Of a stretch of DNA of 64,000 nucleotides, positions 16,444 to 18,527 are shown piece by piece (the stretch's first letter is position 1; the number at the start of each line of letters is the position of its first letter). Source of the DNA: Selenomonas sp. TAMA-11512. GTDB taxonomy: Bacteria; Bacillota; Negativicutes; Selenomonadales; Selenomonadaceae. The DNA lies in contig NZ_AP029018.1 in NCBI RefSeq assembly GCF_037076525.1, forward strand, positions 1 to 64,000, in the 5' to 3' direction. The notes under the pieces were generated by a model. It was given only the letters and a program-made list of their open reading frames with translations. It was not told the DNA's origin and did not search any database. The position numbers and the translations under genes were made by a program.

Positions 16444-17166
16444 TTATGTGTACGTTGACGCTTCCTTTTTGGCGAGTGCGTCGCAGATTTCGTTATAGCG
16501 GCTGCCCGCGTGCCCCTTGACCCACTGGAAGTCCACGCGCCGCGTCGCCATGAGACGGTCCATCTCCATCCACAGGTCTTGGTTCAGTACGCTCTCGCCG
16601 TCCGCTTTTTTCCAGCCGCGCTTCTTCCAGCTGAATATCCACTTTGTGATGCCGTTCTTGACGTACTGACTGTCGGTGACGACAGTGAGCGAGTCACCCG
16701 GCGATACGGTGCGCAAGGCTTCGATGACGGCGGTCATCTCCATGCGGTTGTTCGTCGTCGACGGCACTCCGCCGGAGACGGTGCGGAAGCCGTTCGCGGC
16801 GCTCTCATCCACGATGCAGACGGCCCATCCTCCGGGGCCCGCGGGATTTCGGAGACACGAGCCGTCGGTGTAGACGAGGTGCCCTTCCGGGACGGCAGGT
16901 GCTGCGGCGCTCTTGCCGAACAGGTCGGAGAGGGATCCGGGCGTGCCTGTTTCCGCGATGTCTCCGGCACGGACGCTCTTCATCGGACGCGCGCTCCTGC
17001 CGTCGCGGGGGTCGTCGCCGAGGAGCCATGCTTCCGCTTCCTCGCGACTCAAAAAGCCCTTGTAGCGGGCTCCCTGAAATCCGTCGATGGACGCCTTGCA
17101 GCTCATCCAATCGGTAAAGATGCCTGTGGTGCGCCCTCTGCGCACGGCGTAGTATTTCTTGGCCAT
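16444..17166 (-). CDS. rnhA: Ribonuclease HI with viroplasmin-like N-terminal domain
   Basis: RNase HI cleaves the RNA strand of RNA-DNA hybrids. The 240-aa protein has an N-terminal caulimovirus-viroplasmin-type domain (KKYYAVRRGRTTGIF through GFLSREEAEAWL, residues about 3-50), which binds hybrids, then a linker and the catalytic domain. The catalytic acids are visible in YTDGSCL, NNRMEMTAVIEAL, VVTDSQYV and ICDALAKK. The start at 17166 follows AAAGGA; the frame open further upstream crosses a tRNA and is not coding. Confidence 0.94.
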   Translation of the reverse strand: MAKKYYAVRRGRTTGIFTDWMSCKASIDGFQGARYKGFLSREEAEAWLLGDDPRDGRSARPMKSVRAGDIAETGTPGSLSDLFGKSAAAPAVPEGHLVYTDGSCLRNPAGPGGWAVCIVDESAANGFRTVSGGVPSTTNNRMEMTAVIEALRTVSPGDSLTVVTDSQYVKNGITKWIFSWKKRGWKKADGESVLNQDLWMEMDRLMATRRVDFQWVKGHAGSRYNEICDALAKKEASTYT

Positions 17167-17323: not shown

Positions 17324-17400
17324 TGGTGCTCATGGAGGGACTCGAACCCCCGACTTCCACCATGTGAGGGTGACACTCTAACCAACTGAGTTACATGAGC
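17324..17400 (-). tRNA. tRNA-Val (anticodon CAC)
   Basis: Read leftward, the 77-nt sequence folds fully: acceptor GCTCATG/CATGAGC, D arm ACTC..GAGT, anticodon stem TCACC/GGTGG with loop CTCACAT giving anticodon CAC, and T stem GGGGG/CCCTC with loop TTCGAGT. The discriminator A and the CCA end are encoded (17324-17327). Confidence 0.95.
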
Positions 17401-17431: not shown

Positions 17432-17460
17432 ATTATACACCATAACATGCCGCTTGGCTA
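17432..17460 (-). promoter_or_regulatory. Probable promoter of tRNA-Val
   Basis: Read leftward, a perfect TATAAT (17437-17432) lies about 32 bases ahead of the tRNA, with TAGCCA (17460-17455) 17 bases upstream as a weak -35. The DnaA-box cluster begins ten bases further upstream. Confidence 0.6.
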
Positions 17461-17469
17461 GTGTTATTT

Positions 17470-17606
17470 TGTGGACTTTTCCACAGGATGCGTGTGGAAA
17501 AGTCCGTATCTCTGTGGATAAACGTCCGGGATTTGCGAAAAAGGGGATATATATGACATAAGTTATCCACTTTCACCTATGGATAAGTTCACCTGCCTGT
17601 GGATAA
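17470..17606. promoter_or_regulatory. Non-oriC cluster of seven DnaA boxes
   Basis: Within 137 bases there are two perfect boxes, TGTGGATAA at 17513-17521 and 17598-17606, and five one- or two-mismatch relatives: TGTGGACTT (17470), TTTTCCACA (17477), TGTGGAAAA (17493), TTATCCACT (17563) and TATGGATAA (17578). The last perfect box is inside the 3' end of panE. No AT-rich unwinding tract follows, so this is not a second origin by appearance. DnaA-box clusters outside oriC in Bacillus and E. coli titrate or recycle DnaA. Confidence 0.85.
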
Positions 17607-18527
17607 GAGGGCGGCGCGCTCCTGCACCTTGTCATACCACGGCGTGGGGACGCCGTACTTTTTGCCGAGCTCGCACACTCTCGTGACGAGACCGGCAAAC
17701 TCGGAGATTCTTCCGGCTTCCACGTCTCTCTGCATGCTGGTAATGGTCGCCGGATTCGACTTGTCGATGAGGAGGAGGGCGCTCTCGACGAGGTCGTGCC
17801 GGAAGGTGAGCCCCATCGCTTCTCCGATCGCCTGTACTTCAGCGACAAGCGCCTTGAATGTCTCGCGCTTTTCGCCTTCCGTCTGGAAGTCGGCGGCCTT
17901 TGCCCCGTAGTACAGACCGGCGGCGCCCATGGGGGAGACGAAGGAGAACTTCTCGAGGGACGCGGCGCGGATGTCGTCGGTGTATGCTGTGCGTATGTCC
18001 GCCTGCGTCAGAATCGCTTCGAGCGCTTTCGCCTTTTCTTCAAGGCGCTTGGGCTGCTCCGGGCGGTACCCGTAGATGACACGGAGGATCTTGTGCTCCT
18101 GGGTGAGGACGCCGGGCTCTTTGATGTGGGCGACAACGTAGATGCAGCCGTCGAGGACGGTGAGCGTCTCGCCGCTCGGGTCGAGCGCGCTCTGTATGAC
18201 TTCGCCTGTGCCGAAGACGTTCAGGATGGGGACGACGAGCGTGTCCTTGGACGCGATGCGCTTGACAAGGGCGATGGCGTCGTCCAGCGCGTAGTACTTG
18301 ACGCAGATGAACAGGATGTCGGGGGTGTCGGTGTAGTCTTCCGCCGCCACGGCTCGAACGGGTACGGTGAGGACGCCGAGGTGCGGCGTCTCCAGGGTGA
18401 TGCCGCGCGCCTGTATGGCGGCAAGATGCTTTCCTCTGGCGAGCAGGGTGACGTCATTGCCGGCTTTGGCGAGGTACGCGGCGAGGATGCCGCCGGTGCC
18501 GCCGGCGCCGAAGATGGCGATGTTCAT
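17589..18527 (-). CDS. panE: 2-dehydropantoate 2-reductase
   Basis: PanE (ketopantoate reductase) makes pantoate with NADPH for coenzyme A synthesis. The 312-aa protein has the N-terminal Rossmann motif MNIAIFGAGGTGGILAAYLA, the family segment ICVKYYALDDAI, LNVFGTGEVI (a variant of the usual NG motif), and the C-terminal substrate region SLEKFSFVSPMGAAG with the catalytic-Lys position. Start ATG follows AAAGGAGG. No panB or panC is nearby; members of this superfamily can act on other 2-keto acids, so the assignment is by family. Its last codons contain a DnaA box. Confidence 0.82.
   Translation of the reverse strand: MNIAIFGAGGTGGILAAYLAKAGNDVTLLARGKHLAAIQARGITLETPHLGVLTVPVRAVAAEDYTDTPDILFICVKYYALDDAIALVKRIASKDTLVVPILNVFGTGEVIQSALDPSGETLTVLDGCIYVVAHIKEPGVLTQEHKILRVIYGYRPEQPKRLEEKAKALEAILTQADIRTAYTDDIRAASLEKFSFVSPMGAAGLYYGAKAADFQTEGEKRETFKALVAEVQAIGEAMGLTFRHDLVESALLLIDKSNPATITSMQRDVEAGRISEFAGLVTRVCELGKKYGVPTPWYDKVQERAALLSTGR

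Follow-up and report, generated by a model that had tools for sequence, protein, structure and literature searches.

Why is a dense group of candidate DnaA boxes found beside a tRNA gene in Selenomonas sp. TAMA-11512, outside oriC? The question was raised by a preliminary description of a 64,000-nucleotide stretch of this genome (NZ_AP029018.1, positions 1 to 64,000; the window), in which the group was likened to DnaA-titration or recycling sites such as datA, DARS and the Bacillus DnaA-box clusters. What is known of how Gram-positive bacteria limit initiation by DnaA sites away from oriC comes mostly from Bacillus subtilis, with an effect that needs several clusters to be removed, and a literature search returned no paper joining Selenomonas and the DnaA box. 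A related genus shares the arrangement, and roughly half of the genera examined have something similar; at the level of sequence, this suggests a DnaA-control site.

The box cluster and its surroundings

The cluster occupies 17477-17606 (130 bp) and comprises seven candidate DnaA boxes, of which four match TTWTNCACA exactly and the other three differ from it at one base. The two perfect and five near-perfect boxes first counted were thus recovered (two TTATCCACA, two TTTTCCACA and the three one-mismatch boxes), with a shorter span than the original 17470-17606, because the start at 17470 only adds a half-site. Box 1 (TTTTCCACA, 17477-17485, plus strand) and box 2 (TTTTCCACA, 17493-17501, minus) are exact to TTWTNCACA, converge, and are contained in a perfect 13-bp inverted repeat with a 7-bp loop (GGACTTTTCCACA / TGTGGAAAAGTCC, 17473-17505). 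They are followed by the perfect box 3 (TTATCCACA, 17513-17521, minus), by a weak box-like site with one mismatch (TTTTTCGCA, 17534-17542, minus), by two further one-mismatch boxes (TTATCCACT, 17563-17571, plus; TTATCCATA, 17578-17586, minus) and by a second perfect box (TTATCCACA, 17598-17606, minus). Away from the tRNA the order is + (16) - (20) -, then + (15) - (20) -, the weak extra site falling between the two modules. Boxes 1 to 3 make up a tripartite module of 45 bp (17477-17521), which on the minus strand has two boxes 20 bp apart and an opposed one 16 bp further on (measured between starts); 17563-17606 is an imperfect second copy on the same strand, with spacings of 20 and 15 bp by box coordinates.

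Such density exceeds chance. In 60 dinucleotide shuffles of the window, any 130 bp held at most three boxes and at most one exact box, against the seven observed, and the window as a whole contains 73 boxes at one mismatch or fewer (shuffle mean 38.9). Exact TTWTCCACA occurs 87 times in the single-contig genome of 2,593,422 bp, compared with 31 times for the reversed pattern. Nowhere but in the tRNA-Val cluster do four of them fall into 200 bp, and runs of three are found in both arrays around dnaA and in places near 421 kb and 2490 kb. The motif is also strand-biased in this genome, the minus strand having 41 of the 53 copies in the first chromosome half and the plus strand 27 of the 34 in the second.

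The neighbouring tRNA-Val(CAC) gene (17324-17400, minus) was identified by ARAGORN and Rfam RF00005. Its predicted promoter (17432-17460, minus) combines a -35 TAGCCA (17460-17455) and a -10 TATAAT (17437-17432) across 17 bp, with 10 of 12 consensus matches. The TTATACACC at 17433 resembles a box but is this -10 itself and is not to be counted. On one side of this unit lies ribonuclease H1 with an N-terminal Cauli_VI domain (16444-17166, minus; Pfam), and on the other panE, encoding ketopantoate reductase (17589-18527, minus; Pfam ApbA and ApbA_C). The cluster does lie between tRNA-Val and panE, as first described, except for the box at 17598-17606, which is inside the last codons at the panE 3' end. 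The tRNA is solitary here, and many relatives have it beside tRNA-Val(GAC).

The window starts with dnaA (Pfam Bac_DnaA), flanked by two box arrays that serve for comparison: six boxes in 162 bp upstream of the gene (252-413) and eight in 166 bp directly after it (1940-2105), with a DnaA-trio of the dnaA-dnaN region (TAATAGTAG, minus strand, at 2126) nearby. With seven boxes in 130 bp the tRNA-Val cluster is indeed denser, and its distance from oriC, given earlier as 15 kb, is 15.4 kb from the last dnaA-dnaN box. A box density at least equal to that of the dnaA-flanking arrays would suit a second or relic replication origin. However, the unwinding element with a DnaA-trio that accompanies the boxes of an origin was not found at the cluster: no run of at least three TA[A/G] trios occurs there, and the highest AT content per 40 bp is 72.5%, compared with 87.5% at dnaA-dnaN. 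The earlier remark that no unwinding tract follows the boxes is therefore borne out, and the cluster, lacking a DnaA-trio, is not origin-like. Having neither trio nor comparable AT tract, it was rejected as an origin, a reading that now has almost no probability.

Conservation in a related genus

Two species of the genus g30, G029 (2,568,361 bp) and G175, carry an identical 77-base tRNA-Val with a box cluster directly upstream. The genus is called related because of this tRNA and the best panE match, although by DnaA, G029 is not clearly nearest to the genome of the window (G000). As both species belong to one genus, they provide one independent comparison. Measured from the tRNA 5' end in G000 and g30, five boxes in equal order and orientation lie at 77 and 79 bp (box 1), 93 and 94 bp (box 2), 113 and 115 bp (box 3), 163 and 153 bp (TTATCCACT), and 178 and 179 bp (TTATCCATA, with TTCTCCACA as its counterpart). 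Four are thus kept to within 1-2 bp and the fifth is shifted by 10 bp; the remaining two, at 17534 (134 bp from the tRNA) and 17598 (198 bp), lack a counterpart in g30. When G000 and G029 were aligned with gaps, whose placement was left free to the aligner, 45 of 54 box bases were identical (83%) as against 58 of 144 spacer bases (40%). The promoter hexamers share 11 of 12 bases with G029, and the boxes lie directly upstream of the predicted promoter in both genera, as the preliminary description had noted for the window. That description had also proposed to look for the boxes in relatives and held their absence, along with a lack of DnaA binding in vivo, against the reading; since the boxes are conserved, that half of the objection fails. 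The tRNA-Val(CAC) of this genome and g30 has just 76-87% identity to the tRNAs of other genera among the matches listed.

The neighbourhood in G029 is the same block, with panE, RNase H, DUF805-like and Ppx-like proteins at 28-58% identity, but at a different chromosomal place, and tRNA and cluster are inverted as a unit relative to RNase H and panE. In this genome dnaA is at base 71 and the block at around 692 kb; in G175 the tRNA at 1.632 Mb and dnaA at 2.262 Mb are 630 kb apart. Proximity to oriC is therefore not the conserved part. The preliminary description was right about the distance of 15 kb, but the weight it gave to this distance, and with it the idea that a fixed distance from oriC matters, is weakened by g30. 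The inversion, which places panE on the opposite side of the tRNA, also disfavours a tie between cluster and panE, as do 30 surveyed panE loci, each taken with some 1.5 kb of flanking DNA, where a loose cluster (weight 6 or more) was found only in L001, L002 and L021.

Linkage to tRNA-Val in other genera

For a wider survey, a strict cluster was defined as at least three boxes at one mismatch or fewer, at least two of them exact, within 150 bp. The survey covered 31 tRNA-Val(CAC) loci from 21 of 30 genera, leaving out 18 loci of genus g13, none with a cluster, and L113, from the genome of L077. A strict cluster was found within 1 kb of the tRNA in 11 of 31 genomes and 10 of 21 genera, and was absent in the other 11 genera; within g27, only one of three species has it. 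Among the 31 loci, eight clusters lie downstream within 1 kb, three upstream within 1 kb (G000, G029 and G175) and one elsewhere, so that eight genera other than those of the window and g30 have the cluster downstream of tRNA-Val(CAC). A set of 54 named loci fetched by tRNA pattern, which overlaps with the first, gave seven clusters downstream within 1 kb (47,967 bp), none upstream (49,114 bp) and two elsewhere (312,584 bp). The neighbouring genes vary: a flavin reductase gene lies beyond the cluster in G021, a SIR2 protein gene adjoins it in G009, and a thioesterase gene stands between tRNA and cluster in G163 and G211, further neighbours having been assigned by reading of translations. Because these genes differ among genera, tRNA-Val is the common neighbour. 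The clusters of other genera are possible, not proven, orthologues of that of the window.

Of 189 family genomes, 24 contain the tripartite pattern, and 7 of 30 genera are represented among them; each of the 24 has a single copy apart from G163, which has two, and the reversed pattern was found in none of the 189. A spacing test yielded 48 three-box matches: seven tripartite (gaps 11-12 and 6-7), 17 oriC-like, and others. The tripartite class covers 4 of 961 possible gap pairs, and its seven matches represent about five independent loci. These 48 matches come from 84 rows, of which 28 were dropped because their genomes had been chosen for the module, three as outside the first 31 genomes and four as long forms, and one was omitted. 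As a mark of tRNA-Val the module was rejected: it also lies beside an nrdG-like gene (G018 and one of the G163 sites), a peptidase-like or flavin-reductase-like gene (g21) and others (g17), assigned by Pfam for the G018 gene alone and otherwise by reading of translations. Since the module also occurs beside other genes, it is a preferred arrangement and not a mark of the tRNA-Val locus.

Distance from dnaA across genomes

Of 70 paired-box sites outside oriC, 16 are at a distance of 3-50 kb from dnaA, where at most 2.5 were expected, an enrichment that is optimistic because sites shared by descent are not fully independent. The test used 22 of 31 genomes, nine having been dropped for want of the place of dnaA or a full site list, and it leaves out the window's own cluster, which has no exact TTATCCACA pair. 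The 3-50 kb sites are spread over 11 of the 22 genomes; the other 11 are without one, including drafts in which some may be cut off. For the near-dnaA site of G029 the gap is about 8 kb, or 9.7 kb when measured from the end of dnaA.

The distance from dnaA to the cluster at tRNA-Val varies from about 12 kb (G211) and 15.4 kb (the genome of the window) through 42 kb (G014) and 121 kb (G009) to 630-692 kb (g30). The g30 genomes have another cluster about 8 kb from dnaA, a contrast that amounts to one case. In the genome of the window, rsmG (49.8-50.5 kb) has no dense cluster and the CYTH cluster lies at 421 kb, so that, among the stretches read (window and L088), no dense cluster is closer to oriC than that of tRNA-Val. 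This looks like a turnover of oriC-proximal clusters, seen in few cases.

Comparison with known systems

Okumura et al. reportedly described the DnaA-box clusters (DBCs) of B. subtilis in 2012. The Selenomonas cluster resembles them as a dense group of boxes outside oriC, more numerous than expected by chance, with several such groups per genome, some of them near oriC, although for the cluster at tRNA-Val this nearness differs between genera, as given above. The differences are the link to tRNA-Val and the 45-bp tripartite spacing; in the excerpts cited below, no Bacillus DBC is described as adjoining a tRNA gene. YabA, a Bacillus DnaA regulator, is a further difference: no homologue (PF06156) was found in this genome by a search whose control recovered YabA of Bacillus subtilis and Lactococcus lactis. 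In B. subtilis, removal of six DBCs leads to early initiation (excerpts of PMC5295017 and PMC13220808). A strong effect requires the loss of all six, and the review that says so (PMC5295017, in part) also calls the clusters not significant for initiation.

The datA locus of E. coli is likewise a box cluster adjoining a tRNA operon, downstream of glyV-X-Y (excerpt of PMC10950094), and eight Selenomonadaceae genera have their cluster downstream of a tRNA, here tRNA-Val. In the window, however, the boxes are upstream of the tRNA and not immediately downstream of a tRNA operon, and tRNA, phylum and box layout (datA L120: 1178+, 1245+, 1407+, 1419-) all differ. The datA parallel is a resemblance of layout only.

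DARS1 was located by its place between bioD and uvrB and by its box order. DARS2 boxes were located through a primer quoted in part of PMC4585315. In the K-12 sequence both sites read +14-12-, and the Selenomonas modules share with them three boxes in the order + - - with a close convergent pair. The convergent spacing is similar (14 bp as against 15-16 bp), but the tandem one is not (12 bp as against 20-21 bp). The window has +16-20- and +15-20- in place of the core of DARS boxes I-III, and membership in DARS, which the preliminary description had brought into play, was rejected on this spacing. What holds of that interpretation is a real, conserved and non-origin-like cluster, for which the Bacillus type is the best fit.

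Interpretation

The cluster is probably a chromosomal DBC outside oriC, serving as a DnaA sink of the B. subtilis kind, with binding, sink effect and timing being putative. A small DnaA oligomer would form on the boxes, convergent and tandem, and be retained there, drawn away from oriC; the locus, 15 kb from oriC, would double soon after initiation and so help to delay re-initiation. In a possible second layer, tRNA transcription and DnaA occupancy may influence each other. A sink timed by dosage is weakened by the g30 unit, located 630-692 kb from dnaA.

Alternatively, DnaA bound upstream of the tRNA-Val(CAC) promoter might act on an operator and activate or repress the tRNA with the replication cycle. 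The first full box begins 16 bp upstream of the predicted -35, tRNA, promoter and boxes are kept as a unit in g30, and B. subtilis DnaA is a known activator of sda and an apparent repressor of several operons (excerpt of PMC4447404). Yet eight other genera have the cluster on the downstream side of the tRNA, the first box is 44 bp from the -10 in one of the two genera and 53 bp in the other, and so many boxes would hardly be needed for one tRNA promoter; on these grounds such an operator seems rather unlikely. By analogy with E. coli, the convergent pair and tandem third box might instead switch the DnaA nucleotide, through ADP release (DARS-like) or through ATP hydrolysis of the IHF-dependent kind that characterises datA. 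The + - - order, with 15-16 bp between the convergent boxes, is similar to that of DARS1 and DARS2 (+14-12-), in which the opposed boxes I and II drive ADP release (excerpts of PMC8682772 and PMC5742627), and datA also adjoins a tRNA operon (PMC10950094, in part). Against this stand the second spacing of 20-21 bp instead of 12 and the reported absence of datA, DARS1 and DARS2 from B. subtilis (a passage of PMC13220808), which leave a nucleotide switch quite improbable. A cluster without function, retained by descent or made by local duplication, would explain why the two modules look like mutual copies, but boxes and spacings were retained across two genera while the spacer sequence diverged, and this explanation is very doubtful.

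A bolder version, unlikely as it stands, is that the Selenomonadaceae evolved their own datA counterpart: a locus tethered to tRNA-Val, whose 45-bp array (20-21 and 15-16 bp) would alter the nucleotide state or availability of DnaA and would be coupled to growth rate by tRNA transcription. If true, the Bacillota would have a DnaA switch that acts on the nucleotide or is coupled to growth, of which none is known in their model B. subtilis. A family where such a cluster has remained beside a single tRNA gene after being inverted and moved, with relatives that carry other clusters close to oriC, offers a comparative test of function. The same comparison tests whether the tRNA link, present also at E. 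coli datA, exceeds accident.

Other recurrent clusters

Clusters also recur at other genes. One is associated with CYTH and/or MgtC genes in L084 (5920-6046; 421 kb in G000), L083 (19704-19826; G029), L038, L188, L189, L191-L193, L195 and L199, assigned by Pfam for L084 and L192, by tblastn for L083 and L038, and for the rest by reading of translations. Its distance from dnaA is about 3-35 kb in those other genera for which it was determined, 421 kb here and about 169 kb in G029. A second, at an AICARFT-like gene, is found in L082 (11848-12036; G029), L202 (G175), L196 (G019) and L197 (G005), about 8-9 kb from dnaA, with rsmG nearby in G029 and G175. In B. subtilis, too, DnaA binds a region close to oriC, located between jag and trmE (excerpt of PMC4447404).

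A further cluster is located directly upstream of nrdD, encoding anaerobic ribonucleotide reductase (Pfam NRDD), in L085 (4021-4196; 772 kb in G000) and L083 (5938-6045; 2386 kb in G029). Two genomes have a tripartite module upstream of an nrdG-like gene: G018 (L208), where Pfam gives radical SAM, and G163 (L210), where the gene was assigned by reading of the translation. Judging from these placements, DnaA may control dNTP supply in these genera; DnaA control of dNTP supply in E. coli is the subject of a title cited in PMC5742627 (in part).
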